From the IMG/VR virus record IMGVR_UViG_3300034073_005193, positions 1 through 64,000 of that record: DNA of 64,000 bases; one strand, 5' to 3'. The position numbers and the translations under genes were made by a program. Positions 1,191-44,405 of the stretch are shown in pieces (position 1 is the stretch's first letter; every line of letters begins with the position of its first letter). This DNA comes from a virus. Under the pieces are notes generated by a model, which was not told the DNA's origin, ran no database searches, and saw nothing but the letters and a program-made list of their open reading frames with translations.

Positions 1191-1370
1191 AAGAAGAGTA
1201 CTTACAAGGTATATATCGGAGACACCATTTCGGGCTCATCCGATATGCGGTACTATAAGACTCTGGCTGCGGCAGAGCGGAGATTTAACGATCTCAGCCG
1301 GAGTTTCCGCAGGAACGGTCATAACAACGTAATTATGGCTGAGAACAACACGGTCATCCGATTCTCCTAA
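1182..1370 (+). CDS. small basic protein, 62 aa
   Basis: No family is recognised. The protein starts METKKSTYKVYIGD and is basic, with an Arg-rich helix around residues 32-45 (AAERRFNDLSRSFRR). Its G+C content is visibly higher than that of its neighbours, which suggests separate acquisition or selection for expression. It lies exactly between the two copies of the 45-base repeat, so it resembles an inserted or duplicated cassette. Confidence 0.65.
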   Translation: METKKSTYKVYIGDTISGSSDMRYYKTLAAAERRFNDLSRSFRRNGHNNVIMAENNTVIRFS

Positions 1371-1415
1371 GTGCAAACTTCAGGTTCAAAGTGATAGTGT
1401 AGAATTATGGAAAAC
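1371..1415 (+). repeat. imperfect 45-base direct repeat, copy 2
   Basis: This is the second copy of the 1146-1190 repeat. Here it is non-coding up to the ATG at 1407 and follows directly on the stop of the gene at 1182. The copy still carries the matching stop-codon region of the upstream gene although it no longer ends a gene, which points to duplication of a gene junction. Confidence 0.6.
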
Positions 1416-1673
1416 GAATGGATTACCAGCGAAACCGGAACCCGAACTTTCCGCCATGAGGGCTGGGAGCTAACGGTTTTTGCACATTGTTCTCATCAGA
1501 TTGATATTTCTGCGCCAAATTCAGATGTAGAAATAGATGTAACGTCAGAAGGTATTAGTTGTTTTGGTGAGGAGTCAAGCTTCTACTCCTTTTCCGGAGT
1601 TCGGTTCACTATTCCTTGGAGAATTATTGAAGAAATTTTAAAATTTAAGGCAAGCCAAAATGACGCCCGATGA
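1407..1673 (+). CDS. hypothetical protein, 88 aa
   Basis: No family is recognised. It starts MENEWITSETG, very like the start of the gene at 948, but the rest differs: it is beta-rich (residues 10-65), has no CxxC pairs, and ends in a helix. The leader is repeat copy 2 (1371-1415), so the start region appears duplicated from the upstream junction. Its stop overlaps the ATG of the next gene at 1660. Confidence 0.7.
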   Translation: MENEWITSETGTRTFRHEGWELTVFAHCSHQIDISAPNSDVEIDVTSEGISCFGEESSFYSFSGVRFTIPWRIIEEILKFKASQNDAR

Positions 1674-1896
1674 CATTGTAGATTTGAAATGTCGAATCAA
1701 AGAACTTGAAGAATTAAATAAAATAGAGAAAATTATGAATCGTTACATTCTTAAAAAAGAAATTGTTAATCGTAATGGAATTGTTGTAACAACTTATTTT
1801 TGGAATGACGGCAGTAGAAGCGTTGATTCTTCTTGTCATTGTTTTGGAATTTCGTTTAGAACTCATTCAAATGATAACTGCCTTAATCGAAAATGA
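1660..1896 (+). CDS. hypothetical protein, 78 aa
   Basis: No family is recognised. Residues 5-27 are a short coiled coil, followed by a beta-rich part with a Cys-His-Cys cluster (SSCHCFG) that could bind metal. The start overlaps the upstream stop by 14 bases, and the stop overlaps the next ATG at 1893, so it is part of a coupled series. Confidence 0.65.
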   Translation: MTPDDIVDLKCRIKELEELNKIEKIMNRYILKKEIVNRNGIVVTTYFWNDGSRSVDSSCHCFGISFRTHSNDNCLNRK

Positions 1897-2225
1897 CCTC
1901 CTCTAAAAAACTTTCAACCAGATCCGATGGCGAACGAGAAAGAGCCAAGCATATCATTTCTCGTTTACGAGGCTGTATTGATGGATTAGAAATAGGTTTG
2001 AGAGATTACTCTGCTCCTATCGGGCTTGAAGCGGGAGAAGCAATCACTCAAACATCTATTGAACTAGATGCTTATATGCGAGCCGAACAAGATCAAAAGC
2101 AATTGCTAAAAATTAAACAAGCCTCAAAAGATTTTATAGAAGTTTACGAAAGAATTAGCGATGATAATAATTGGGGATCTTTAGGAGACGTTGAAGATCA
2201 ATTGAAAGAAGAATTGATAAAATAA
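1893..2225 (+). CDS. helical hypothetical protein, 110 aa
   Basis: No family is recognised. It is almost entirely helical and charged, with a basic N-terminus (residues 1-28) and an acidic C-terminus, and no membrane segment. The ATGA overlap with the upstream gene indicates coupling. Confidence 0.7.
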   Translation: MTSSKKLSTRSDGERERAKHIISRLRGCIDGLEIGLRDYSAPIGLEAGEAITQTSIELDAYMRAEQDQKQLLKIKQASKDFIEVYERISDDNNWGSLGDVEDQLKEELIK

Positions 2226-2250
2226 ACCATCAATTATCTGACATAATTGC

Positions 2251-3012
2251 ATGTCATATATATATAGACTTGTCGCAGGACCAGATCCTATTAATGTTTC
2301 AGCAAGATTGCCTGCCGGATTTTCGTATACTGGCTTTTGGAGCACCTCAAAAACCGAAACTGAAAATTTAATAAATGCACATTTGGAGTTTGTAAGTGAT
2401 TATATGGGTGGCGGCGCATACCCGTGGTCTGATGAACTTACAGTTCTTACTACGGACTTATCAAATGTAGAAACGGTTGATGAATACGAAAAATATCGTA
2501 CTGGACCATATCAGCCTGATTTTGATTCTTCTGAAATTTTTGTAATAAAAATTAAGGATCTATCTAAAATTACAAAAGAGCCTTGGGATTTTTGGAAGTA
2601 CGGTAGGAAATTTTATTTTCATCGAGATGATGATCCACAGACCGAAGCTAGATTAAAAACATATGAAAAAATAAAAGAACTTTCTTTAAAAGAAGATCTT
2701 TCTGAAAACGATATCAATTCACTGAACTTGTCCCTAAGAGAACTAAGGGCGCTCGAACAACAAAATCTGGATCTTGCAGTTGCTCATCCAGATAAGAATC
2801 AAAAAGAAAAATCTTTATATGTGGCAGAAGATAATAAGGAGAACAATGATAGGCTTGAGCAGCTAATTAACAGATTAATACAAAATAAAAACAATATCTC
2901 AAAAGCTTTTTTGCATGAAAAATTTCAAAAAACGTTATCAGCTGAAGATATTGAAAAAAAAGCAATTTATTTTTATTTTCTTTGCAAAACGTCCTTCTTA
3001 AAAAGATCATGA
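2251..3012 (+). CDS. hypothetical protein, 253 aa
   Basis: I recognise no family. Residues 1-130 are a globular part rich in aromatic residues and glycine (the YMGGGAYPW segment near residue 50); residues 130-225 are long charged helices with coiled-coil character; the C-terminus is basic. The N-terminal part could be an enzyme or binding fold, but no catalytic motif is evident. The stop overlaps the ATG of the next gene at 3009. Confidence 0.8.
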   Translation: MSYIYRLVAGPDPINVSARLPAGFSYTGFWSTSKTETENLINAHLEFVSDYMGGGAYPWSDELTVLTTDLSNVETVDEYEKYRTGPYQPDFDSSEIFVIKIKDLSKITKEPWDFWKYGRKFYFHRDDDPQTEARLKTYEKIKELSLKEDLSENDINSLNLSLRELRALEQQNLDLAVAHPDKNQKEKSLYVAEDNKENNDRLEQLINRLIQNKNNISKAFLHEKFQKTLSAEDIEKKAIYFYFLCKTSFLKRS

Positions 3013-3287
3013 AATTAAATATTGAAGAATTATCCCGTGATAAAAACAAATCATTAAGCTCTCAGCCAATAATTAAATCCGGCTCCAACAAAGGCTTTAG
3101 ACAGATTGAGAAAAATGGAAACTGGATCTATTTAGATGGCTATGATTACCATTGCCGTCAACAAGAAAAATCCATTCATTTTAATTACGTTAAAACATTA
3201 ATTAATTTAGGCTTCCGAATCGGATCTTGTGATTTGGATGGCGTAAAATCTTTTTATATTTTCAAAAGTAAGGAAACAAATCCATGA
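3009..3287 (+). CDS. hypothetical protein, 92 aa
   Basis: No family is recognised. I chose the ATG at 3009, which overlaps the stop of the 253-residue gene, over an upstream in-frame start at 2982. The protein is basic and mixed alpha/beta with many aromatic residues in its second half. Its stop overlaps the next gene's ATG at 3284. Confidence 0.65.
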   Translation: MKLNIEELSRDKNKSLSSQPIIKSGSNKGFRQIEKNGNWIYLDGYDYHCRQQEKSIHFNYVKTLINLGFRIGSCDLDGVKSFYIFKSKETNP

Positions 3288-3535
3288 GCGATAACGAAAA
3301 ATATTGGCAAGAACGTCGAGCCGATTTACAATTCTGCCTAGATAATAATCTAGTTTTTAAAATTACTCATCAAGACTTAGAACAAGAGAACATCTTTCTC
3401 AAAGAAGAAAGGCAAAGATTAATTAAAAAATTAGAAGAAATAGAAAATCTCTCTAAATATGCCTGGGAACAAGTGGATCGCAACCCAGAAGAAGCAAAAG
3501 AACTATTTAAAATGATTTTTACAAAAAGCAAATGA
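3284..3535 (+). CDS. small coiled-coil protein, 83 aa
   Basis: No family is recognised. It is almost wholly helical, with a coiled coil around residues 30-60 (QENIFLKEERQRL and after). It is the last gene before the tandem Ntn-hydrolase genes, 18 bases upstream of the first, and may share their transcript. Confidence 0.7.
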   Translation: MSDNEKYWQERRADLQFCLDNNLVFKITHQDLEQENIFLKEERQRLIKKLEEIENLSKYAWEQVDRNPEEAKELFKMIFTKSK

Positions 3536-3553
3536 ACCCAGGAGAAAATATAC

Positions 3554-4153
3554 ATGACTTGCATTGCCGCATTAGTTGAAAACAATACAGTTTATATGGG
3601 AGGCGATTCTGCTGGAATTGCCGGATTATCTATTACCGTTCGCTCTGATGAAAAAGTTTTTATTAATGGTCCATTTATCATTGGAATTACTGGATCGTTC
3701 AGAATGTCCGATCTCCTGAGGTATAAACTCGACCCACCAAAACAAACCGTTCATCGAGATGATCGAGCTTATCTTGTTACCGATTTTGTTGATAGTCTGA
3801 GAAAATGTTTCTCTGCCAATGGTTTTGGAGATAAAGATGCTACCGTTGGAGGGACTTTCCTCCTAGGATATAAAGGAACACTGTATTCCGTTCAAAAGGA
3901 TTATCAAATTGGAATTCCCAGCACCCAATATGATGCCGCTGGTTGCGGAGCAGATTTAGCTCTAGGTTCTCTTCATTCTACAGCTAAACTTAATCTTAAG
4001 CCAGAACAGCGCATTACTATGGCTTTAGAAGCTGCTAGTACCTTTAGCGCAGGAGTTTCTCCGCCATTCTTGGTTATGAAACAAGAATATAAAGATCCGG
4101 AAGCACCAAAGAAAAAATCACAGCCTGCCGCCCCAAAGAAAAAGAAAAAATAA
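3554..4153 (+). CDS. proteasome/HslV-like Ntn hydrolase, paralogue 1
   Basis: The protein starts Met-Thr. If the Met is removed, Thr becomes residue 1, and a conserved Asp falls at 17 (GGDS) and Lys at 33 (SDEKVF). Thr1, Asp17 and Lys33 are the catalytic residues and exact spacing of proteasome beta subunits and HslV. A Gly-Ser turn near 46-47 and a glycine-rich AAGCGADLALGSL segment match later parts of that fold. The expected role is an N-terminal-threonine peptidase, possibly a ring. From memory, single proteins of this type occur in bacteria and phages, but their substrate is not known to me. The last 25 residues are Pro/Lys/Ala-rich and end in six lysines. A close paralogue follows at 4246. 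No ATPase partner is adjacent. Confidence 0.85.
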   Translation: MTCIAALVENNTVYMGGDSAGIAGLSITVRSDEKVFINGPFIIGITGSFRMSDLLRYKLDPPKQTVHRDDRAYLVTDFVDSLRKCFSANGFGDKDATVGGTFLLGYKGTLYSVQKDYQIGIPSTQYDAAGCGADLALGSLHSTAKLNLKPEQRITMALEAASTFSAGVSPPFLVMKQEYKDPEAPKKKSQPAAPKKKKK

Positions 4154-4190
4154 ATAATTAACATAACCGCCAATATACATTGCAATTATT

Positions 4191-4199
4191 TTGCATATA
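4191..4199 (+). promoter_or_regulatory. candidate TTGCATATA promoter element
   Basis: TTGCATATA lies 47 bases before the ATG at 4246, in the 92-base gap between the two Ntn-hydrolase genes. The same string with small variation occurs at 19339 and 62306 in gaps before genes. No good -35 box is present, so it could be a phage-type or extended -10 promoter. This is inference from repetition only. Confidence 0.3.
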
Positions 4200-4245
4200 C
4201 TTACGGCGCAAGAGGTAAGTCAACAGCAAACCCAAAAGGAGCTTC

Positions 4246-4917
4246 ATGACTGCTATCTCCGGAGTATCGATAAATAACACAGTGTATATCGGCGGTGATT
4301 CCGCTGGAATTTCTGGTCTTTCTGTAACAATTCGATCTGATGAAAAGGTCTTTACAGTTGGACCATTTTTATTTGGAATCGCTGGCAGCTTTAGAATGGG
4401 AAACATTCTTCGTTACAAATTCAAAGCTCCCAAACAAAAACCAAATCAAACCGATATGGCTTATTTGGTAACTGACTTCGTAGATTGTTTACGTGCATAT
4501 TTTGCAGCCAATGGATTTGGAGACAAAGATGCTACCATTGGAGGAAACTTTTTGCTTGGGTACAAAGGCAATCTTTATAACATTGATGCTGATTTTCAAG
4601 TAGGAATTCCCAGCACTCAATACGATGCCATTGGTTGCGGAGCAGAATTAGCATTGGGATCTTTGCATACCACTTCGCAATTTGATATTACCCCAGAGGA
4701 AAGACTTCGTTTATCATTGGATGCGGCAAGCAAATTCAATGCAGGCGTAGCTCCTCCATTTGTTATTCTTTCTCAAAAATACGATCCTAAAAAAGAAAAA
4801 CTAGAAGCTAAAGCAAAAGCCAAGGCAAAAAGCAAAGAACCCAAAGCCAAAGCAAAATCCAAAGCTAAAATTGAAGTAACAATGGAAAAACAAGCTTCGG
4901 CAAAAAAGAAAAAATAA
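4246..4917 (+). CDS. proteasome/HslV-like Ntn hydrolase, paralogue 2
   Basis: This is a close paralogue of the gene at 3554, again with Met-Thr start, Asp17 and Lys33 in proteasome register, and the shared segments ANGFGDKDAT and IPSTQYDA. The globular part ends near residue 183. The remaining 40 residues are an Ala/Lys repeat tail (AKAKAKAKSK, then similar), ending in KKKK, much longer than in paralogue 1. Such a tail could bind nucleic acid or anchor the protein in the phage particle or nucleoid; this is inference. A GAGCTTC stretch precedes the ATG; the ribosome site AGGAG is at 4237-4241. The two copies could form a mixed ring, as in alpha/beta proteasomes, but both look catalytically intact. 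Confidence 0.85.
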   Translation: MTAISGVSINNTVYIGGDSAGISGLSVTIRSDEKVFTVGPFLFGIAGSFRMGNILRYKFKAPKQKPNQTDMAYLVTDFVDCLRAYFAANGFGDKDATIGGNFLLGYKGNLYNIDADFQVGIPSTQYDAIGCGAELALGSLHTTSQFDITPEERLRLSLDAASKFNAGVAPPFVILSQKYDPKKEKLEAKAKAKAKSKEPKAKAKSKAKIEVTMEKQASAKKKK

Positions 4918-4940
4918 TTCGTTCTTAATTAAAAAGATTC

Positions 4941-4975
4941 AGCCCCTTGACAGGATTTGTTCGAGGGGCTATTCT
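4941..4975 (+). promoter_or_regulatory. sigma-70-like promoter inside an inverted repeat
   Basis: TTGACA at 4947-4952, a 17-base spacer and TATTCT at 4970-4975. The arms AGCCCCT (4941-4947) and AGGGGCT (4964-4970) form a perfect 7-base inverted repeat that spans the region from -35 to -10. It may act as terminator for the upstream gene or as operator, and it would drive the gene at 5016 and the MTW genes. Confidence 0.7.
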
Positions 4976-5015
4976 CTTTGTGGCGGCAGAGGATTGTGCT
5001 GCAAGGAGTTAAAAA

Positions 5016-5195
5016 ATGACCTACGAAGATCATCAGAAATTTAAATGGCTTTCTATTTATGGGGCATATGTCGCAGTTCAATGCCATCAAAGAATGATAG
5101 ATGGTCATGGCGGCGATTTGTCAGATGTTATTGAAAGCATTAAAGCAGATGCAGAAGCTGTTGCCGATTGGGCACTTGAAGGAGAAGCAAAATGA
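5016..5195 (+). CDS. small acidic protein, 59 aa
   Basis: The gene starts MTYEDHQKFKW and has a good AAGGAG ribosome site at 5004-5009. It is the first gene after the promoter at 4947. The protein is helical and acidic with His residues; no family is recognised. Its TGA overlaps the ATG of the next gene at 5192. Confidence 0.7.
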   Translation: MTYEDHQKFKWLSIYGAYVAVQCHQRMIDGHGGDLSDVIESIKADAEAVADWALEGEAK

Positions 5196-5641
5196 CTTGG
5201 GTAATTAAAGAAACTTATTCCGATTCTAAAAAGAAAATTTCCATTTACTGTTGCAATGTCCATTGTACCAAATGGAGCACGAGTCAATCGGAAGCCTTTA
5301 AATTCAAAGGTAAAGATTCTGCTTATAAAGCTTTGAATCGTTTAAAGAGTCTTGGTTCCAATGCAAAATTGGTTCGCCTCAAGCCAAAGCAAGAATTAGT
5401 TCATCCTGAGAATGGTACGGTGTTTCTGGACTTGACAATGCCAACTCCAGAACCTAATATCGTGGTGTGCGTCTATGAGGAGCTTGGTGAAGATTTTGGA
5501 GAAGAAGCAGGAGATAATGTTTATTATGTCTGTACGGTAAACTCCATGTCTACCAAAAGCGAAGATATTTTCTGCGAGCTTTCCGAGTATCATCAATTTT
5601 TGCGAGAAGGCAAGATTCAAGTAATCTGGGAACCGACATGA
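5192..5641 (+). CDS. MTW-family protein 1, 149 aa
   Basis: First of three consecutive paralogues that share an N-terminal module: MTW[IV][IL]K, then about 30 residues later a (S/H)Q.EA..F segment, then a helix. Here residues 1-60 form the module, and the rest is a beta-rich acidic part ending KIQVIWEPT. The end resembles that of the second member (RIKILWER), so these two align over their full lengths. Function is unknown. Confidence 0.75.
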   Translation: MTWVIKETYSDSKKKISIYCCNVHCTKWSTSQSEAFKFKGKDSAYKALNRLKSLGSNAKLVRLKPKQELVHPENGTVFLDLTMPTPEPNIVVCVYEELGEDFGEEAGDNVYYVCTVNSMSTKSEDIFCELSEYHQFLREGKIQVIWEPT

Positions 5642-6096
5642 CTTGGATATTAAAAAATAAAAACGGCTATTATTACAAATCAGGAATGGATATTATTCCT
5701 TTGAATTTTACCAATGTTAAATCTTCTGCATCACAAAAAGAAGCATGTCGTTTCGAGCAAAAAACAAATGCCGAACTGACAAAAAATTGTCTTAATGCCA
5801 GCTTTGTTAAAGCAAACGCTGAGGAATACAAAGTTATCAAACTTAAATCGCCCGAAGATAGCGAGTCTTTGTTGCCGCAAGTAGATACTGTATTTTACGA
5901 TGATGTTTTTGGAATTCCGCACCTTGTATGTAAGGTTAACAAAGATCCTAAAAACTCTTCTGAGTATGAAATTTGGACGGCATGTTCTGCTAACAAAAAT
6001 TATTATTGGGGCAGTGATAAAGATTGGCGCACCTTTTTAAATAAAGGCAGAATTAAAATTTTGTGGGAGCGGGATCAAAATGACTTGGATTGTTAA
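5638..6096 (+). CDS. MTW-family protein 2, 152 aa
   Basis: Second paralogue; the start MTWILKNKNGYYY and the SASQKEACRFEQ segment align with the gene at 5192, and the C-terminal GRIKILWER aligns with GKIQVIWE there. It overlaps the upstream stop by four bases and the downstream start by 17 bases. The function of the family is unknown. Confidence 0.75.
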   Translation: MTWILKNKNGYYYKSGMDIIPLNFTNVKSSASQKEACRFEQKTNAELTKNCLNASFVKANAEEYKVIKLKSPEDSESLLPQVDTVFYDDVFGIPHLVCKVNKDPKNSSEYEIWTACSANKNYYWGSDKDWRTFLNKGRIKILWERDQNDLDC

Positions 6097-6781
6097 ATTA
6101 AGCGATGGAAGATATTACGTTAGGAAATATCTTGAAGCTCCGGGATCTGTTCCTGAAATTAGCTTTACTTACCATCAAGCCGAGGCTTTCAAATTTCCTA
6201 GCGCAATAGATGCTCATTCTACTAAAGAATGGCTTGAATCTACTCATTCAAAAGCTGAAGTTATTAAATTTTCGGATAAAATTATGAACAAAAAAGAATT
6301 AAATCGAAAAGCTGCAATTGCCGTAATTAGTGACCTCATTGAAAAGATTTCTCTCTCATATAGAGATCAAGTCTCTCAAGCATTAGATGTTTTGGGAGCC
6401 ACTACAGACGAAAGAGTTTCCGTTTTAGGCAAGCTAGATAGCGCAGTTGAAGGCGCTCACAAATTATTTAGGCGAACAACACATGTTGATTCTCAAACTC
6501 TTTTAGCGAAAATTGATAGCTGTCTTTTTGAGGATGACTGGGACTTTGATAGCGTGATCATTAATCACGATGATTTCATTGAGTTGTTTGTAAAAAATCT
6601 TGACAAAGTTCGTAGCAGGTATAATGAAAACTCATCAGATGATGAGGTTCTAAAGCATCTAGAACCGATGAAAACTGGTCGTGGCGGAACCTTGAGGAAT
6701 CGTCATGGAAATGTCAGTAAAACAATTTATTGGAGCTACGAAATAGATCGTGGCGAAGTTCTTGGCTGTAAGAAATTTTGA
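6080..6781 (+). CDS. MTW-family protein 3 with extra C-terminal domain, 233 aa
   Basis: Third paralogue. Residues 1-65 carry the shared module (MTWIVKLSDGRYYV and HQAEAFKF). The remaining 165 residues are unrelated to the other two: a helical part (about 75-150) and an acidic then basic end. This is a fusion of the common N-terminal module with another domain, which suggests the module is a targeting or binding unit. Confidence 0.75.
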   Translation: MTWIVKLSDGRYYVRKYLEAPGSVPEISFTYHQAEAFKFPSAIDAHSTKEWLESTHSKAEVIKFSDKIMNKKELNRKAAIAVISDLIEKISLSYRDQVSQALDVLGATTDERVSVLGKLDSAVEGAHKLFRRTTHVDSQTLLAKIDSCLFEDDWDFDSVIINHDDFIELFVKNLDKVRSRYNENSSDDEVLKHLEPMKTGRGGTLRNRHGNVSKTIYWSYEIDRGEVLGCKKF

Positions 6782-6784
6782 ATC

Positions 6785-7009
6785 ATGAAGCAAAAACATA
6801 TCTATATGTGGTTTGATGGCGATGTTAAGCGTCACTACTTTTCCAGCAAGCTAACTTATAACAAATGGTTAAGGGAGTTTGTTTCTGAATTAATGAGCGA
6901 TCCAACATTTCCATCTTTCTACGGGAATCTAAAAAACAAATCAAGGAAAGATGTGATGAGTTATTTTTCTTCAAATCTTTACCTAGAAAAAATTAAATTA
7001 GATCAATGA
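6785..7009 (+). CDS. hypothetical protein, 74 aa
   Basis: No family is recognised. It is basic and aromatic-rich (MWFDGDVKRHYF near the start), with a helical middle. It begins three bases after the upstream stop and belongs to the same transcript. Confidence 0.65.
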   Translation: MKQKHIYMWFDGDVKRHYFSSKLTYNKWLREFVSELMSDPTFPSFYGNLKNKSRKDVMSYFSSNLYLEKIKLDQ

Positions 7010-7033
7010 CCACCAGCACAAGGCAAGAAAATC

Positions 7034-7333
7034 ATGAAAATCTCTACAGAAATTAATAAGATTAAAAAGCGAATCAAATCAAGAATTGACGATCATGTTA
7101 ATTATTTAATGATTGGAATTGAATTCGTTAAAGAATCTAAAGAATGGCATGTTACCCCTTGCTTTGAAGGGGGAGGGGATGGTCATACATCATATATCGC
7201 TTTGGATGACCCCGGAATTCTGAACCCCGGACCATTTCAAGGAGTTGGCGAAACGCTACCAAAAGCTATTGCTAATATTAAAAAAGCACTGGATAACGCT
7301 GAGCAAAAAGATTATTGTTTTTACCGTTGGTGA
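7034..7333 (+). CDS. hypothetical protein, 99 aa
   Basis: No family is recognised. A basic N-terminal helix (residues 1-25) is followed by a beta-rich part with a glycine-rich loop (FEGGGDGHTS) and a C-terminal helix. This pattern could be a HicB-like partial RNase H fold, but the resemblance is weak. Confidence 0.7.
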   Translation: MKISTEINKIKKRIKSRIDDHVNYLMIGIEFVKESKEWHVTPCFEGGGDGHTSYIALDDPGILNPGPFQGVGETLPKAIANIKKALDNAEQKDYCFYRW

Positions 7334-7339
7334 TTAACC

Positions 7340-7579
7340 ATGAGTTATTCCTGCAAAAATAGAGGTCCCCGCAGTTACGAATGGATTTGCCTCTGCCCCG
7401 ACAAAGGCAAATCAGCTAAAGAAACCATTCCAAATCTTTGGAATAGTTATGTTCAAAATTTAATCATCTCCCTTCAAAAGAAAGTCGATTCTCTAACCGA
7501 GGAACAAGCATTGAAAGAATTGACAAAAATAGAAGACGAAGCAAATCTTCGATTCCAACTATGGAGAGATTCATGTTAA
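7340..7579 (+). CDS. hypothetical protein, 79 aa
   Basis: No family is recognised. The N-terminus has three Cys residues (positions 5, 18 and 20) that could bind metal; the rest is a charged helix. It starts six bases after the upstream gene. Its last codons contain the start of the next gene. Confidence 0.65.
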   Translation: MSYSCKNRGPRSYEWICLCPDKGKSAKETIPNLWNSYVQNLIISLQKKVDSLTEEQALKELTKIEDEANLRFQLWRDSC

Positions 7580-7773
7580 AAAGTAAATATGACGCAGAAA
7601 TTAATGCCAGAGAACGACTTCAGCTTTGGAATTGGATTAACGAATATGTTGTGGCTTGCGGAGGAGATCCTTCAGACGCTACAGTTAGCAATCGTCGAAT
7701 GGAAGCAGTTTCTAGAATTGAAGGAACGATTTTTGAAATCGCCAATCGTCATTACAAGGCTTGCCGATCATGA
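7573..7773 (+). CDS. hypothetical protein, 66 aa
   Basis: I chose the ATG at 7573 because a GGAG ribosome site (7563-7566) lies six bases upstream; an in-frame ATG at 7561 is possible. The protein is helical and starts MLKSKYDAEINARERL. No family is recognised. Its end overlaps the next start. Confidence 0.6.
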   Translation: MLKSKYDAEINARERLQLWNWINEYVVACGGDPSDATVSNRRMEAVSRIEGTIFEIANRHYKACRS

Positions 7774-8006
7774 TTCCTGGTAATAATAATTGGCTTGCTT
7801 CGCCAGGAAATTATAATCAATTAGATGCTATAGTTGGTCGCATGGTGCAAGATTTGTTTAAATTTGAAAGGCAGCCCTTTACATTTAAAACAAAGATGGC
7901 TATGCAAGCTATAGTTGACCGAGCCATATCAGATGCTCGTCAATATGGAATTGACCCTTCTCAAATAATGGAAGTAGCAAACAGAATTACAGTAATAGAA
8001 AGATAG
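7770..8006 (+). CDS. hypothetical protein, 78 aa
   Basis: I chose the ATG at 7770, which overlaps the upstream stop, over an in-frame TTG at 7761. The start MIPGNNNW is followed by a helical protein with no recognised motif. Confidence 0.65.
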   Translation: MIPGNNNWLASPGNYNQLDAIVGRMVQDLFKFERQPFTFKTKMAMQAIVDRAISDARQYGIDPSQIMEVANRITVIER

Positions 8007-10411: not shown

Positions 10412-11293
10412 ATGAACCACGAAGAAAACGCATACTTAGACTTATTGAAAAATATCCTAGATAATGGGACAACCAAACAAGACCGCACTGGAGTTGGTAC
10501 GATTGGAATTTTTGGCTCCCAGTTAAAATTCTCATTGGAAAATAATACTCTTCCCTTACTTACCACTAAGAAAATGTTTCTACGTGGAATTGTGGAAGAG
10601 CTATTGTTTTTTATTCGTGGCGAAACGGACACTAAAAAACTAGAAGCGAAAGGCGTTAATATCTGGAAAGGTAATACCAGTCGAGACTTTCTTGACAAGC
10701 GGGGTCTTGGATATTTGCCCGAAGGTGATATGGGTAAAGGATATGGCTTTCAATGGCGCAATTTTGGCGGAACAGCCAAGTCTTATGATTATAAGAATCA
10801 TCCCAGAGATGGTGTAGATCAGTTGTCTAGAGCATTGGAAATGATTAGAAACGAACCGAATAGTAGGAGAATTATAGTATCGGCTTGGAATCCAGTACAG
10901 TTAGATGAAATGGCTTTGCCTCCCTGTCATTGGAACTTTCAAATGCAGGTAGAAAATGGAAAATTGAATTTAATGTGGGTACAAAGAAGCTGGGATATTT
11001 TTCTTGCTGGCGGATTCAATATTTGCAGCTATGCAATTTTGACTATGCTTTTAGCTAAAGCTGCTAATTTGCAACCAGGAAATCTTATTTGTTCAGTAGG
11101 CGATACTCACGTTTACCTCAACCATATTGATCAGGTAAAAGAGCAAATCACAAGAACTCCCTATCCATTTCCACAGCTATCAATAGATAAGCCAATCAAT
11201 TCAATTGAAGACATGGAAAATCTTTCGTATGAAGATTTTGAACTTCACAATTATCAATGTCACCCAGCAATTAAAGCAGAAATGGCGGTTTAA
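10412..11293 (+). CDS. thyA: thymidylate synthase
   Basis: It converts dUMP to dTMP using methylene-tetrahydrofolate. All main features are present: Arg25 (QDRTGVGT), the double Arg at 152-153, the catalytic Cys172 in LPPCHW, the QRS phosphate-binding turn at 191-193, Asp195, Asn203 and the THVYLNH segment with His233 and Tyr235. Asn203 argues for dUMP rather than dCMP as substrate. At 293 residues it is a little longer than the E. coli enzyme (264). Two positions differ from the usual consensus: Trp194 after QRS, and AGG instead of GLP before FNI. These could affect substrate choice, for example toward hydroxymethylation. Expected role: thymidine supply for viral DNA. Confidence 0.93.
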   Translation: MNHEENAYLDLLKNILDNGTTKQDRTGVGTIGIFGSQLKFSLENNTLPLLTTKKMFLRGIVEELLFFIRGETDTKKLEAKGVNIWKGNTSRDFLDKRGLGYLPEGDMGKGYGFQWRNFGGTAKSYDYKNHPRDGVDQLSRALEMIRNEPNSRRIIVSAWNPVQLDEMALPPCHWNFQMQVENGKLNLMWVQRSWDIFLAGGFNICSYAILTMLLAKAANLQPGNLICSVGDTHVYLNHIDQVKEQITRTPYPFPQLSIDKPINSIEDMENLSYEDFELHNYQCHPAIKAEMAV

Positions 11294-13648: not shown

Positions 13649-14485
13649 TCATCTTTCTAAAGTTGACCTGACGACCCAGAAATCCATTGCATATTGAGTG
13701 TTTTTAATAAAGTCGTAAGGCATCCAGAAATAACCTTTCTGCCCCCAGCTTCTGCCCCAAGAGTTTCTAATTTTAAAAGCCCCTGTGGTAATTTCACCAT
13801 TTCTATTTCTAAGTTTTCTAGAATCTTCATAACCAACCATGGTTAAAGCATGACCGCCTTCTGCAATATCTTTGGGTCCAGGTAAACCATAAACTGCACT
13901 CTTAGATGTTTCAGGGTCCATTAAATGAGTAAAAGCAATAGCTCCGAAAGCAATTAAATATCCCGTAGCCAAAGCTGCTTTCATAGTAGTAATGTCGCCA
14001 TTGTTAATTCTATAATAGTCAACAATTTTATGGAGCTTAGCGTTATCATAAACATTTTGAGAAGGTTTAACTAAAAATTTAGTTATGTCATAACCCCAAA
14101 ATGATTCATCAACTGTCCCAAATGAGTTTAATGATTTGATGGCATTTCTCATGGTAGCGCCAGAATCTTGATTAATAGTGCCTTCCATTTCACGAGTTAC
14201 ATAATATTGAAATAATCTTGAAAGGTTTTTGTATCCTTTCTTGACGCCAAATCGATTATCGTTATATTCTAGAATGGCTGTAGTAACATGAGCGGTACAA
14301 GAGCCAATTGAACCTTGGTCGTCAATTGGAGAACAAAATTTGCTATTGTCAATCATGACCGGGGCAGCATGTAAAATATCCGTTGGATTAGTTTTTAAAA
14401 TAAAATCTCTTTCATCGGGCTGATCAACTTTCCAGCTTTTTAGATGCACGGATTTATTTGACCCTAATAAAATATGAGTTGACAT
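13649..14485 (-). CDS. papain-like (C1A) cysteine protease
   Basis: The protein has the complete papain triad and oxyanion Gln: Gln57 (DDQGSIGSC), catalytic Cys63, His212 in GGHALTMVGYED, and Asn241 in RNSWGRSWG. The order and spacing match the mature C1A domain, which covers almost the whole 278 residues. An N-terminal stretch of about 45 residues is too short for a classic inhibitory propeptide. There is no signal peptide, so the enzyme would act in the host cytoplasm or in the virion. A GGAG ribosome site precedes the ATG (complement near 14493). It is a lone minus-strand gene, which suggests separate acquisition. Target is unknown. Confidence 0.9.
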   Translation of the reverse strand: MSTHILLGSNKSVHLKSWKVDQPDERDFILKTNPTDILHAAPVMIDNSKFCSPIDDQGSIGSCTAHVTTAILEYNDNRFGVKKGYKNLSRLFQYYVTREMEGTINQDSGATMRNAIKSLNSFGTVDESFWGYDITKFLVKPSQNVYDNAKLHKIVDYYRINNGDITTMKAALATGYLIAFGAIAFTHLMDPETSKSAVYGLPGPKDIAEGGHALTMVGYEDSRKLRNRNGEITTGAFKIRNSWGRSWGQKGYFWMPYDFIKNTQYAMDFWVVRSTLER

Positions 14486-22883: not shown

Positions 22884-23867
22884 ATGGAAGAAATAAATAC
22901 AGTACTTTCAAATCTAAATCTAGATGCGCAATGCATTGATTATCAATCAACTAACTCTTCGGAGTTTTATGATATCAAACTTGGCTATAAATGCTCAGTA
23001 AAGAAATTTTCAAATTCTCTCAAAGAGCTTGAATTTAGACTAGGTTCTCATAATTCATTGTTTTTAACTTTACTGCCTAAGAGCGGTTGTGTAAGAATTC
23101 AAAATTTGAAAAATAATCTTCAGATTAAATTTGAAGATGTATATTCCAAAAAAGAAGGGCTTCTCCCAGTAATCCTAGGCAAGGATTACTATGACAATAT
23201 TATTTTTTCAGATTTTTCTAATCATCCCCATACTTTAATTTCTGGAACAACTGGATCTGGAAAAAGTATGGCTCTGCATAACATTATTTGTAATTTATTA
23301 CTAAAAAATAATACAGAACTATATTTATCTGATTCTAAAGGAGTAGAATTTATTCCTTATGAACGTTTTTCTAAAATTTCAGAAATAGCTAAAACATATG
23401 ATGAAAATATATATATGCTTAAAAAAATCCATTATATTATGGAGAGTAGGTTTGCAATAATGCGCTCTAAAAATCAAAATAATTTCCAAAAATTATTTGG
23501 AATCAATCCAATTGCGATTATAATTGATGAACTTTCGGATTTATTGATTCAAGATAAAGATTCTGAATTAAAAAATATTTTACTATCCATTGCTCAAAAA
23601 TCTCGAGCTGCTGGAATTTTTTTAATTGCGGCAACACAGCGTCCGTCAGTTGATATTCTATCTGGGACCATCAAAGCCAATTTCCCGGCTAGAATAGCCC
23701 TTAAAGCAGCCTCCCCAGTTGATTCCAAAGTAATCCTAGACCAGACCGGAGCTGAAATGCTGAAAGGATATGGTGATGCAATTATTAACAATGAAAAATA
23801 TCAATTTCTTAGATTTAAATTTCCACTAATTAATCATCAATCAATAATTCAAAAAATTAAAAAATAA
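22884..23867 (+). CDS. FtsK/SpoIIIE-like ATPase
   Basis: It is a P-loop ATPase of the DNA-pumping FtsK/HerA type. Walker A is GTTGSGKS (121-128), Walker B AIIIDE (211-216), and TQRP (251-254) is the typical sensor segment, followed by ILSGTIKANFPARIA as in FtsK proteins. At 327 residues it has a short N-terminal domain and no membrane segments, so it is a soluble motor domain only. Roles could include DNA translocation, packaging-related or segregation-like functions. Confidence 0.85.
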   Translation: MEEINTVLSNLNLDAQCIDYQSTNSSEFYDIKLGYKCSVKKFSNSLKELEFRLGSHNSLFLTLLPKSGCVRIQNLKNNLQIKFEDVYSKKEGLLPVILGKDYYDNIIFSDFSNHPHTLISGTTGSGKSMALHNIICNLLLKNNTELYLSDSKGVEFIPYERFSKISEIAKTYDENIYMLKKIHYIMESRFAIMRSKNQNNFQKLFGINPIAIIIDELSDLLIQDKDSELKNILLSIAQKSRAAGIFLIAATQRPSVDILSGTIKANFPARIALKAASPVDSKVILDQTGAEMLKGYGDAIINNEKYQFLRFKFPLINHQSIIQKIKK

Positions 23868-29103: not shown

Positions 29104-29925
29104 CTAATTTTTAAGTAAATTATTAATTGTTACTGCATCAACAAAGAATGACATATTTGGAACTGCCGGTCTAAAAAAAGAACATATTCCAATTAATTTC
29201 CCATCTATGTCAAAAGCTCCGCCTCCAGAGTTGCCCATATAAATCGGAGCTGTAATATGAACTAATTTTTGTTGATATCCTGTGGGATTTATTTCAGTTC
29301 TAAAACCTGAAATAATTCCAGTAAAATATGTAAATTCAACTCTTGCAGGATGCCCAACAATATGAACTTTTTCACCAATTTTTCCATTAGATCCAGATAC
29401 TTCAACAAAACTATCTGAGCTGTAATCTAATGTTTTTAAAATCATAATATCGTTATTATTGTCAAATTTTATTATTTTTGCTTTTTTAGTTGGTGGATTT
29501 TCTAAATTATAAGAATTTGATATTTCACCAAAAGTTTTAAATGAAACTTCTAACCCAAGCATATCATCAAGGTTAGGAGTGTAACTTAATGCTTTAATTA
29601 TTTTAATTAAATCTTCTAATGTTTTTTCTTCTTTTTTAATAATTTCTTCGCTAATTTTAGCATCTTCTGGTTCTGGAATTAAGCTTTCTCCACAGTGCCT
29701 TGCGCTAATAATTATTTCTGGAGAAATAAAAACTCCTCCACAAAAAGTAGAATATTTTTTATTTTCTTCTGACGGGCGTAAAAACGCAACAGAGCTATTC
29801 TCTAATTTATAAACTAGATTTGTATTTTGCTGTTGCTCTATAGATGCAACTTTTACATGCGACGGAATTGAACAACAACCAAGTAAGAAAAACAAACAAA
29901 AAAGAAAAGATATCTTGTTTTTCAA
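29104..29925 (-). CDS. trypsin-like serine protease lipoprotein
   Basis: The start MKNKISFLFCLFFLLGCC is a lipoprotein signal with lipid Cys at 17. The trypsin-fold catalytic residues, numbered from the TTG start, are His77 (SARHC), Asp159 (NNNDIMIL) and Ser233 (MGNSGGGAF). There is no PDZ domain. I chose a TTG start at 29925 because a GGAG ribosome site has correct spacing to it; a GTG two codons upstream is too close. The enzyme would act outside the cytoplasm, attached to a membrane. A phage-encoded, membrane-anchored serine protease is unusual; roles in envelope remodelling or exclusion are possible. Confidence 0.85.
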   Translation of the reverse strand: MKNKISFLFCLFFLLGCCSIPSHVKVASIEQQQNTNLVYKLENSSVAFLRPSEENKKYSTFCGGVFISPEIIISARHCGESLIPEPEDAKISEEIIKKEEKTLEDLIKIIKALSYTPNLDDMLGLEVSFKTFGEISNSYNLENPPTKKAKIIKFDNNNDIMILKTLDYSSDSFVEVSGSNGKIGEKVHIVGHPARVEFTYFTGIISGFRTEINPTGYQQKLVHITAPIYMGNSGGGAFDIDGKLIGICSFFRPAVPNMSFFVDAVTINNLLKN

Positions 29926-30055
29926 AGCCACTCCTATGTTCGTCGCTTACACGCCTAATGATATACGTTATATATGCTTATATTCTTTGTGCAGTATCAA
30001 AAATAGTAAAAATATGTAAGTTGATGTATTACAAAAAAAGCATATAATTTAGCAT

Positions 30056-30442: not shown

Positions 30443-31471
30443 ATGATTAAGACCGATGTAGTTACCGATCTGCTATGGGGAGATAATGGTAAAGGAAAAA
30501 TTACTCATTCGCTAATGAAAAATAATAAATATGATTATTGTCTGAAATTAGCAGGTTCTGCTAACGCAGGACATACCATTTATCATAATGGTGATAAATT
30601 TGTCACTCATTTGCTTCCAGCTGGAATATTTTTTAATATTCCCTCGATTATTGGCAGAAACTGCTTGGTTCATCCAGAAACTTTGTTTGCAGAAATTGAA
30701 CAGCTGCAAAATCAATTTAATAAACATGAAGATCTGAAATCTATTGATATTCAATCTTTAGTGAAGATTGATAAAAATACTTGTATTATTACAGACGATC
30801 ATATTTACGAAGATTCTAAAGATACTATTATTGGATCAACTAAACGTGGGGTCGGTCCTGCTGCTCGTGATAAATATGCTAGAACGGCAGTTCAAGTTCA
30901 AAATGTTGATTCATTAAAGGGATTCGTTGTAGATTTTCCAGAAATAATCTATCAAGAACAAAATGCTTCTATCCTCGGAGAAGGAGCTCAAGGTTTTTAT
31001 TTGGATGTTAATTTTGGTGATTATCCTTATGTAACTAGCACTCACTGCTCTTTAGCAGCTGTTCCGTTGAGCGGAATTCCAATTCGATCAATTGACCGAA
31101 TTTTTGGAGCAATTAAAATTTATGCTACTTATGTTGGAAAAAAATCCTTTCAAGGAGAAGATTCTAGATTCGACATGATTGCTGAGGCAGGGTCTGAGTT
31201 TGGTTCTACTACTGGAAGAAAAAGACAAGTCAACTGGTTAGACTTAGACAAGTTAATTTATGCTATTAAGGCTAATGATGTAACTGATTTGATTATTTCT
31301 AAAATTGATATTTTTAGAAAATTAAATATCTTTGTCTTAGTTAAAGATAATAAAATCATTGAGTTTAATAACGAAAAAAATATGAAAACATACATTCATG
31401 ATGTCTTGTACGATTCAAGATGTAATTCCATTAAGAATATAGTGTTTTCAGAATCTCCACATGACATCTGA
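30443..31471 (+). CDS. adenylosuccinate synthetase family protein (PurA-like)
   Basis: Family motifs are complete: WGDNGKGKI (12-20) with the catalytic Asp14, NAGHT with His44, GSTKRGVGPAARDKYAR (131-147), GEGAQG with Gln183, YPYVTST (195-200), and the GTP/aspartate loop GSTTGRKRQ (254-262). It joins IMP and aspartate with GTP in AMP synthesis. At 342 residues it is shorter than bacterial PurA (about 430) and lacks the usual C-terminal part. Phage relatives called PurZ use dGMP to make 2-aminoadenine, but they replace this Asp; here it is kept, which argues against a standard PurZ. An intermediate subgroup is possible. Confidence 0.85.
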   Translation: MIKTDVVTDLLWGDNGKGKITHSLMKNNKYDYCLKLAGSANAGHTIYHNGDKFVTHLLPAGIFFNIPSIIGRNCLVHPETLFAEIEQLQNQFNKHEDLKSIDIQSLVKIDKNTCIITDDHIYEDSKDTIIGSTKRGVGPAARDKYARTAVQVQNVDSLKGFVVDFPEIIYQEQNASILGEGAQGFYLDVNFGDYPYVTSTHCSLAAVPLSGIPIRSIDRIFGAIKIYATYVGKKSFQGEDSRFDMIAEAGSEFGSTTGRKRQVNWLDLDKLIYAIKANDVTDLIISKIDIFRKLNIFVLVKDNKIIEFNNEKNMKTYIHDVLYDSRCNSIKNIVFSESPHDI

Positions 31472-35696: not shown

Positions 35697-35769
35697 GTCG
35701 TTTTAGCTCAGCTAGCAGAGCACCTCATTGGTAATGAGGAGGTCATGGGTGCAACTCCCATAAACGGCT
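35697..35769 (+). tRNA. tRNA-Thr (anticodon GGT)
   Basis: Acceptor GTCGTTT with AAACGGC (one G-T pair), D arm with GCTC...GAGC, anticodon arm CCTCA-TTGGTAA-TGAGG with anticodon GGT, and T arm ATGGG-TGCAACT-CCCAT. The T loop starts TG rather than the usual TTC, a small deviation. Its last base touches the stop codon of the convergent gene. Confidence 0.85.
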
Positions 35770-36521
35770 CAAAGTTCTAGTTCTTCTTCTAGTTTCATTA
35801 AAACTAGCCTAGACATTCCAAGATTGCTTTTTTCTTTGTCTAGAACGACATAGATAAATAGATTATCTTGTTTTAATACGAAGGTAACTATGTGATAGTT
35901 GTTATTTAAGTTAATAACAATATCTTCAATTTTATCTTTAATGTTTAAGTTAGTTAAGAACTTCTTGTGAGATTTAACTACTTCAACCATGTAAGCGCAA
36001 TATAATTCAAATTCAGAGGATTTATCTGAGTTTTGAATTATAGGCATTCCAGTTGTTATGTCTACAATGGAAGCGGCTAGTACGCCATCAAGCTCCATAA
36101 TGGTGTTAAATTTTTCTTTTATGCTTTTAAAATAAGAAGAGCTTGGTTTTCTTGATGTAGAGCCTGATGAAGATTGTTCAGCTTCTGGCTCTAAGGCATA
36201 ATTTTTAATTTTTCCCTCATCTAACAAGACGTAATATTCTAGAATAAGTTCGGTCCATAATTTGTTAATTGACTCTACTTCTGGTAAAACATTGGGAGAA
36301 ACTTTAAAAGTTCCATCCTCCCAAGTTAACATTTCATAAAAAGCATCAATTCCAAAATTATTGGTAGTGGTAGCGTGAAGAACTCTTCCAGTAGAAACCC
36401 AAACTTCACCAGAAAATTTCTTATGAGTTATAGTTATATGAGCAGATGCTTGACTTAGTATGTAGAATTGAATTATATCTACCAGTGTCTCGGTAGAAAT
36501 CTCGCCTTGAAATTTATTCAT
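35769..36521 (-). CDS. DUF4388 (PATAN-like) plus Roadblock/LC7-like protein
   Basis: Residues 1-75 match the DUF4388/PATAN domain: GEISTETLVDIIQFY, then SGEVWVSTGRVLHA and WEDGTFKVSP. A Ser-rich linker (about 115-130) leads to a C-terminal Roadblock/LC7-like domain (about 135-250: LDGVLAASIVDITTGMPII, with a final helix). Both domains are frequent in Myxococcota and related bacteria, where Roadblock proteins such as MglB regulate small Ras-like GTPases that set cell polarity and movement. A phage copy could bind a host GTPase. It is an isolated minus-strand gene ending against the tRNA-Thr gene. Confidence 0.75.
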   Translation of the reverse strand: MNKFQGEISTETLVDIIQFYILSQASAHITITHKKFSGEVWVSTGRVLHATTTNNFGIDAFYEMLTWEDGTFKVSPNVLPEVESINKLWTELILEYYVLLDEGKIKNYALEPEAEQSSSGSTSRKPSSSYFKSIKEKFNTIMELDGVLAASIVDITTGMPIIQNSDKSSEFELYCAYMVEVVKSHKKFLTNLNIKDKIEDIVINLNNNYHIVTFVLKQDNLFIYVVLDKEKSNLGMSRLVLMKLEEELEL

Positions 36522-38675: not shown

Positions 38676-39211
38676 GATAGAACGCTTCTGATTAATCTTA
38701 CTCTTTCTTGCATAGATTCGCTGTTAATTTGAATGTAGTTCAAATTAAATAACTCAAACATGAATTTAATATTGGCATCAATGGCTACCATTTGGTCCCA
38801 GTTAACAGATTCTCTGACTCCATCGTTTTTCATTGTGGCTTTGCTGGGCTTGACTAAGAAGATGACTACATCTTTATCTTTTAAGGATTTAATGTAATTT
38901 TGGCACTTCTCATCATTGATTAATTTATGGAGTTGAGTGCCATGCTGAGCCATGTAAGCTAAATTATCGAAGCTTCTATCTGAAACAAATGATAAATGTT
39001 TTGATTCTTCATTAATTTGGCGATAGAAAACTTCTGTTTGATATTGGTCAATGGCTTCTAAATTGACTCTTAAGGTTTCTAAGGATATTTCTTTCTCAGC
39101 TAAAACAGTTCTAGCTACTTCACTGAGGAATGGAAGATTATATTCTTTAGAAGTAAGCCTAGCTAAGGTAGATTTTCCTGAAGCGTGGCAACCGGTGAAA
39201 TAAATTCTCAT
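38663..39211 (-). CDS. P-loop nucleotide kinase-like ATPase (AAA_28/NadR-like)
   Basis: The start MRIYFTGCHASGKST is a P-loop (residues 7-15), followed by FLSEVART and DRSFDNLAY, which matches small kinases of the NadR C-terminal or AAA_28 type. At 182 residues it is a single domain. It may phosphorylate a nucleoside, nicotinamide riboside or another small molecule. It lies next to Nudix and HAD genes, consistent with nucleotide or cofactor metabolism. AGGAGA precedes the ATG. It is a lone minus-strand gene. Confidence 0.75.
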   Translation of the reverse strand: MRIYFTGCHASGKSTLARLTSKEYNLPFLSEVARTVLAEKEISLETLRVNLEAIDQYQTEVFYRQINEESKHLSFVSDRSFDNLAYMAQHGTQLHKLINDEKCQNYIKSLKDKDVVIFLVKPSKATMKNDGVRESVNWDQMVAIDANIKFMFELFNLNYIQINSESMQERVRLIRSVLSYLR

Positions 39212-43604: not shown

Positions 43605-44405
43605 ATGCAATCTTTAAGTGAAAGACAGGAACATTATAAATCTCCTTATGATTACGAGATCATGAGGAGATTGCCTATTATCATCAGCATTGATGGTAGA
43701 AATTTTTCTAAACTATCAAAGAATTTATCAAAGCCTCATTCTACTCATTTAAGCAAAGTGATGTCAGATGCCTTGCTATATACGATTACAGAGGTCCAAG
43801 GTGCTGTTTTTGGATTTACTTTTGCAGATGAAGTTTCTATTATTGTAAGAAACGATCAAAATTTTGAAACTGAGCCATGGTTGAATAATAAAATACAGCA
43901 AATAGCATCTTCTGCTTCTTCTATTTTTACGCTGGCTTTTTACAAACTAGCTTTGTCTTTAGAGCTGGAACTACTGGGAGATTCAATTTTTAAATCTCAT
44001 GTTTGGGCAGTGCCAACTCTGGTAGAAGCCTCCAATTATATTATATACAGACAGCAAGAATGTTATAAGTCTGCTTTGAGATTAGCTGCTAATCATGAAA
44101 TATCTAAAAAAATAGGTCCAAAAAAAGCTTTTGATTTAATTCAGGGAAAGTCTATTGAAGACAAGATTGATTTGTTATTAAAATATGCAGGTATAAATTT
44201 TCATGAATACTATCCATCTTATTTTTATAATGGAATTGCGGCTTATCGAGCACCCATTTTAATAGAAAGCTCAGAAGAAACTTTTGCCAGGAACAAATGG
44301 ATAATAAACTCTGAAATACCTTATTTTTTAAATAATAAAGATTTCTTATTTAATATTCTTTTAAATGGCAAAGATATTATTAGAGTTTCAGGCTCTGATG
44401 ATTAA
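43605..44405 (+). CDS. Thg1-like 3'-5' nucleotidyltransferase
   Basis: The family adds nucleotides in the 3'-5' direction, for example G-1 to tRNA-His, or repairs damaged tRNA 5' ends. Motifs: SIDGRNFSKL with Asp30, then TFADEVSI with Asp75-Glu76, forming the metal site, and NYIIYRQQ near 144-151. The length (266) is normal. Together with the RNA ligase at 18258 and the phage tRNAs it points to tRNA repair or protection against host tRNA-cutting defences. Confidence 0.88.
   Translation: MQSLSERQEHYKSPYDYEIMRRLPIIISIDGRNFSKLSKNLSKPHSTHLSKVMSDALLYTITEVQGAVFGFTFADEVSIIVRNDQNFETEPWLNNKIQQIASSASSIFTLAFYKLALSLELELLGDSIFKSHVWAVPTLVEASNYIIYRQQECYKSALRLAANHEISKKIGPKKAFDLIQGKSIEDKIDLLLKYAGINFHEYYPSYFYNGIAAYRAPILIESSEETFARNKWIINSEIPYFLNNKDFLFNILLNGKDIIRVSGSDD

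Follow-up and report, generated by a model that had tools for sequence, protein, structure and literature searches.

Proteasome homologues encoded by phages are known from a survey published in 2021 (Fuchs, Alva and Lupas), which added 22 new homologues, including the phage-borne AAH and PPH (PMC8665760). The range of AAH includes phages, Firmicutes and Bacteroidetes, and PPH is a protein of about 140 residues in which helix H2 is missing. The survey found neither a co-occurring AAA+ partner nor a genomic context hinting at function for these homologues; in its main text, the words "tandem" and "paralog" are absent and "duplicat" appears once, in relation to the proteasome alpha and beta subunits. 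Some homologues of the superfamily are not proteases or do not form rings; connectase, a monomeric protein ligase that misses helices H1 and H2, is an example (PMC8665760). The bacterial BPH makes up double rings and binds epoxomicin, and its description names no known unfoldase (PMC5777263). A literature search, with preprints and most subscription papers outside its scope, retrieved no study of paired proteasome homologues in a phage or of what the family does.

The locus studied here lies in a window of 64,000 nucleotides (positions 1 to 64,000 of the IMG/VR virus record IMGVR_UViG_3300034073_005193) and encodes two such proteins side by side, P1 and P2. Since phage proteasome homologues of this type were catalogued in 2021, the enzyme is of a known kind and the pairing is what is new. 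The preliminary description of this DNA had mentioned single unexplained proteins of this sort in bacteria and phages; single-copy relatives do exist in phages, but "unexplained" holds for their function only, as the family itself had been catalogued (PMC8665760).

Layout and predicted fold of the two genes

The features of the locus, in window coordinates, are the following:

3554..4153, + strand: P1, proteasome-like threonine peptidase subunit of 199 aa, class A (intact ORF)
4246..4917, + strand: P2, paralog of P1 of 223 aa, class A, faster-evolving (intact ORF)
3557..3559, + strand: P1 Thr1 codon, numbered after Met removal (sequence, conservation)
3605..3607, + strand: P1 Asp17 codon (sequence, conservation)
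3653..3655, + strand: P1 Lys33 codon (sequence, conservation)
4249..4251, + strand: P2 Thr1 codon (sequence, conservation)
4297..4299, + strand: P2 Asp17 codon (sequence, conservation)
4345..4347, + strand: P2 Lys33 codon (sequence, conservation)
3540..3544, + strand: AGGAG, ribosome-binding-like sequence of P1 (direct reading)
4236..4241, + strand: AAGGAG, ribosome-binding-like sequence of P2 (direct reading)
4154..4245, + strand: 92-nt spacer between the P1 and P2 genes, with one promoter-like site (9/12)
4091..4150, + strand: lysine-rich C-terminal tail of P1, net charge +7 (sequence)
4783..4914, + strand: lysine-rich C-terminal tail of P2, net charge +12, with one predicted helix at residues 181-221 (sequence, AlphaFold2)

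The listed starts of both genes are the first ATG, GTG or TTG codons of their frames. The proteins are 62% identical and begin with MTC (P1) and MTA (P2), and both ORFs confirm the earlier reading of a Met-Thr start with Asp at position 17 and Lys at position 33 from that Thr. This register is beyond chance, as the family profile, the fold and the conservation described below rule out a fortuitous motif. A promoter in the gap between the genes was also considered and rejected, for the region 2900-5300 contains 6 promoter-like sites against 7.0 expected. Downstream of the pair, at 5192-6781, three adjacent ORFs each begin with MTW and share 25-30% identity with the first of them; this small tandem family has no Pfam match.

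The source virus record measures 120,839 bp and contains two peptidase copies. Another virus record, 301,007 bp long, which also has two copies according to the phrog_1040 profile and was the sole match when related loci were searched with P2 only, is identical to window positions 1246-7914, P1 and P2 included. Both records may represent the same virus population; an assembly artefact is nevertheless an unlikely source of the pair, given the identity of the second record over the compared stretch.

The preliminary description had proposed searches with HslV and proteasome profiles, and their outcome is mixed. Both proteins match phrog_1040, the "peptidase HslV family" (E = 6.5e-24 for P1 and 2.2e-25 for P2), but no HslV model of NCBIfam is matched at E values up to 10, where proteasome models appear below threshold only, and PF00227 (Proteasome) gives P2 15.4 bits against a gathering cut-off of 22.4 and does not match P1. 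P1 as a single sequence finds nothing meaningful among the PDB sequences, and a profile of 76 sequences retrieves BPH (1.8e-11) and HslV (3e-11). The proteasome-type (Ntn hydrolase) fold, for its part, is upheld by AlphaFold2 models of each protein and by structure comparison. These models, predicted as monomers from alignments of the window and locus proteins, have mean pLDDT values of 95.1 (P1) and 94.5 (P2), and the best solved structure is BPH in both cases (P1: Z = 21.7, rmsd 2.3; P2: Z = 22.4, rmsd 2.2; 172 residues each), followed by HslV (Z of about 19 to 20.7) and the 20S proteasome subunits (about 18 to 19.6). The nearest viral predicted structures include phage proteins annotated as HslV or proteasome. 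P1 and P2 are thus predicted to have the proteasome/HslV fold. BPH, the best match both in structure and in sequence profile, is yet only about 20% identical to them. The AlphaFold2 models delimit a core of about 178 residues with helices at 49-57/58 and 70-88; this size and the presence of helix H2 exclude membership in PPH. P1 and P2 most likely belong to the AAH type of phage group-I proteasome homologues, to which they correspond in size, in their presence in a phage and in having a compact fold.

Peptidase pairs in other viruses

The distribution of these genes was studied in 83 other virus records with the 76-sequence profile: 74 have one copy and nine have two or more. The sample, which retains near-identical records, draws 50 records, mostly the longer ones, from the 79 that came from other viruses among the best 80 of 269, and adds 33 further records (24 from the best 80 of 191 and nine class B records). 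Multiple copies occur in two of the 74 records that were chosen solely for their similarity to class A and in seven of the nine chosen for carrying class B. All nine multi-copy records have a class A gene adjoining a divergent class B gene ("VWLGGDRAATDGG", "CGLPKVM"), and this two-gene unit is found at loci L120, L121, L123 and L125-L130. Class B is present at 12 loci, nine of them with the adjoining class A. Class A was not found in the records of two others (L124 and L131) and the contig of L122 stops right after class B; a thirteenth candidate, L132, is assigned to class A by its score. An additional match, weak and partial, is present in each of two records (3e-6 and 7e-6).

The gap between both genes and their identity were measured at eight of the nine loci, L128 being left out as it is alike L127. 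Class A and class B proteins are 27-35% identical. The gap ranges from -4 to 6 nt at six loci, is 28 nt at L123, where the gene order is reversed and a third member lies about 2 kb further on, and 452 nt at L130. The near overlap at six of the eight loci suggests a matched production of the two proteins. Class B forms one clade (SH-aLRT 100) in a quick tree made from the 109 of 124 rows that remained after an 80% identity filter. Many of the genes around the A+B pair are common to these loci, which therefore look like one phage clade. The A+B pair is older than the duplication that produced P1 and P2 and has a separate origin. A tight co-evolution of both partners was considered, but the identities among class A and among class B proteins correlate weakly (r = 0.22, over 28 non-independent pairs), which lends no support to it or to mixed A+B rings; in the two closest pairs, class B is more conserved than class A (91 vs 64 and 87 vs 61). 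Upstream of the pair, an ORF of L120 and L125 weakly resembles thymidylate synthase, and a thymidylate synthase gene is separated from the peptidase by no more than several kb both in the window (10412-11293) and in three named phages (L005, L010 and L014).

Side-by-side peptidase pairs look uncommon in phages. A tblastn search of annotated phages with P1 (E up to 0.01) found 172 records with one place each, a result that omits distant copies, since it did not pick up the neighbouring copy in the Aeromonas phages described below. Escherichia phage 121Q (L013) has a second weak phrog_1040 match elsewhere in its record, and a ClpP-like protease gene (2065-3597) two genes upstream of its HslV-like gene.

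Duplication, divergence and possible partners

In the phylogeny, P1 and P2 come out as sister sequences (bootstrap 98, SH-aLRT 95), with L146 (93/98) as their closest outside row; L146 is single-copy in a record of 361 kb. This topology indicates that the duplication is confined to the lineage of the window phage and is younger than the split of that lineage from its nearest relative. Of 80 loci of the nearest relatives (the best 80 of 191), the own locus and the A+B locus L170 are the only ones at which another copy is present within 2.5 kb. No synteny links the window pair to L020-L022: beyond the peptidase, there are only weak matches to far-off window ORFs. The window encodes a tRNA-His guanylyltransferase (Thg1-like) homologue (43605-44405, phrog_4717, 1.7e-40), and L021 and L022 have distant homologues of it close to their peptidase genes.

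P2 has evolved roughly three times as fast as P1 (branch lengths of 0.59 and 0.20). At sites where L020 and L021 agree, there are 22 P2-only changes against 10 that are P1-only; the former include C2A, T45A, positions 60-65 and three changes in helix H4. Alanine at position 45 occurs in four of the 134 class A proteins. In proteasomes, helices H3 and H4 make the main contacts between rings (PMC8665760). One reading of this divergence is that each protein assembles into a homo-oligomeric peptidase of its own, with its own substrates, and that the tandem is a duplication for specialisation rather than a two-subunit particle. The P2-only changes C2A, T45A and those at positions 60-65, which are located in loops and close to the active site, fit this idea, as do the ribosome-binding sequence that each gene has to itself, the 92-nt gap and the single copy with which 74 of the 83 other records manage. 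Yet recent duplicates of ring proteins usually still share interfaces, the 62% identity of P1 and P2 is a level at which this generally applies, and the older A+B genes nearly overlap at most of the measured loci. We therefore hold separate homomers for a tentative alternative that has perhaps a third of the plausibility to itself.

The next question concerns the partners of such a particle. The earlier observation that no unfoldase gene is adjacent to the pair is upheld, and it extends to the whole of the own and the 301-kb records, in which no HslU/ClpX-type unfoldase was found. AAA_2 has no match in these two records and ClpB_D2-small has none in 13 records, the nine A+B records included, although the records may be incomplete in both cases. 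The search for an unfoldase of the phage itself led instead to an FtsK-like protein (window 22884-23867, phrog_1358) and to a 239-aa protein of the 301-kb record, which match AAA (PF00004) above the cut-off; the latter is presumably DnaC-like. A further AAA match at 39092-39205 of the own record is below the cut-off. The lack of a phage unfoldase, together with HslV being the second-best fold match (Z up to 20.7), could be explained if the particle were an HslV substitute that docks on the host HslU, or on another host unfoldase, and redirects it. This seems unlikely, as no HslV-specific NCBIfam profile is matched at E values up to 10 and the 2021 survey found no co-occurring AAA+ partner for such homologues (PMC8665760).

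Other window genes were also recorded. The protein encoded at 35769-36521 contains DUF4388 (PF14332, 1.8e-14), which seems unusual in a phage and is a possible hint at the host. An adenylosuccinate synthetase homologue is present at 30443-31471 (PF00709, 1.8e-68; phrog_1211, "2-aminooxy adenylosuccinate synthetase"), and homologues of papain-type (PF00112, 2.2e-14) and trypsin-like (PF13365, 1e-13) peptidases are encoded at 13649-14485 and 29104-29931 (- strand).

The long branch of P2 and its presence, among the records searched, in the window phage only might also be expected of a recent neutral or decaying duplicate without a role of its own. We regard this as improbable because the P2 protein is complete, retains the invariant glycines along with Thr1, Asp17 and Lys33, is preceded by a good ribosome-binding sequence and has a tail even longer than that of P1. 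Tails of at least 12 residues with at least 30% Lys/Arg are found in 12 of 107 proteins, including those of L020, L021 and L022 (one truncated protein was left out and identical tails were kept, three of the 12, those of L046, L047 and L049, being the same).

The catalytic residues are conserved well beyond the pair. The survey of the active site covered 145 unique relatives of at least 150 aa (134 class A and 11 class B, from 196 before identical sequences were removed). Residue 1 is Thr in 139 of them, Ser in four and a gap in two; position 17 is Asp in 144 and a gap in one; position 33 is Lys in all 145, even if the class B Lys sits one residue later by plain counting. Some relatives start with a codon read as L, V or I. 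The accessory residues of the family differ from those of proteasomes, which counts against the explanation favored below. The column that we take to be Ser129 of proteasomes, placed through the 76-sequence profile alignment, is Cys in P1, P2 and 117 of the 134 class A proteins and Ser in all 11 class B proteins. In the oxyanion-glycine column, 94 of the 134 class A proteins have Ser and 13, P1 and P2 included, have Gly, as do all 11 class B proteins. The Cys in the Ser129 column of most class A proteins, and the precedent of connectase as a ligating relative (PMC8665760), could indicate Ntn hydrolases with a job other than protein degradation, for instance a connectase-like specific ligase or an amidase, but this is hardly probable given that the nearest folds are the ring peptidases BPH and HslV and that H1 and H2, missing in connectase, are predicted in P1 and P2.

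Proposed assembly and comparison with known systems

The explanation that we favor as a whole, with somewhat better than even confidence, is that P1 and P2 are duplicated phage group-I homologues: active, ring-forming threonine peptidases without a phage unfoldase. From established biochemistry, the host methionine aminopeptidase would remove Met1 of both proteins, because Thr is small, and the exposed Thr1 would act as the N-terminal nucleophile assisted by Asp17 and Lys33. In Vibrio phage henriette 12B8 (L010), a peptide deformylase gene (2633-3130) lies three genes upstream of the peptidase and could help to expose Thr1. The stacked subunits would enclose their active sites within a BPH/HslV-like ring or double ring, and the basic tails probably lie on the outside and bind something acidic. 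Since no HslU/ClpX-type phage ATPase was found, the particle probably either acts independently of ATP, degrading or trimming small or unfolded proteins, or makes use of an unfoldase of the host. The faster change of P2 may tune the substrate pocket, the loops or the partners.

P1 and P2 inherited the same interfaces, so that mixed P1/P2 rings are plausible; for a pair that is 62% identical, we give them about an even chance. Mixed rings would be somewhat likelier for the near-overlapping A+B genes than for P1 and P2. The pairing of the genes suggests, as an indirect pointer, a heteromeric proteasome. It is conceivable, if a little short of even odds, that some large phages have a true two-subunit proteasome, made of two active threonine peptidase subunits that co-assemble, and that it arose at least twice, in the old A+B pair of one clade of large phages and in the recent duplication to P1 and P2. 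Such pairs of seemingly active paralogs in phages offer a concrete case for a two-component, self-compartmentalising viral protease without an unfoldase, one kind of which (A+B) has been kept together over deep divergence. They may also be seen as a natural replay of the way in which one-subunit proteasome rings turned mixed. With the P1 and P2 tandem and the separately formed A+B pair at hand, the two-subunit viral proteasome becomes a testable question.

The comparison with known systems defines the place of this pair. AAH, PPH and the phrog_1040 proteins are, like P1 and P2, phage-borne and compact, have Thr1, Asp17 and Lys33 and are without a known AAA+ partner; in its main text, the survey of AAH and PPH describes no pair, whereas the window has two adjacent paralogs that keep their catalytic residues. 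BPH (5ovs, 5ovt and 5ovu) is the best structural match and likewise has no known companion unfoldase, but it is bacterial, distant in sequence and, in the particles of known structure, encoded by a single subunit gene. HslV (ClpQ) shares the fold and the Thr1/Asp17/Lys33 register, but differs in its HslU-type ATPase, of which none was found in the phage, and in the NCBIfam models that P1 and P2 do not match. Two HslV-like genes are also reported in the Salmonella jumbo phage pSal-SNUABM-04, with HslU described as undetected (PMC7823757); these are ORFs 1 and 116 and thus, as numbered, do not form a tandem, unlike the genes of the window. A comparable arrangement is that of the Aeromonas phages 4L372D and 2L372X (Plateaulakevirus), which have two adjacent genes annotated as "peptidase HslV family", the second of these phages with a third match elsewhere in its genome. 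Their pair is made up of a class A-like gene and a distant PPH-like neighbour with a long C-terminal part, and in this it differs from the two class A paralogs of the window.
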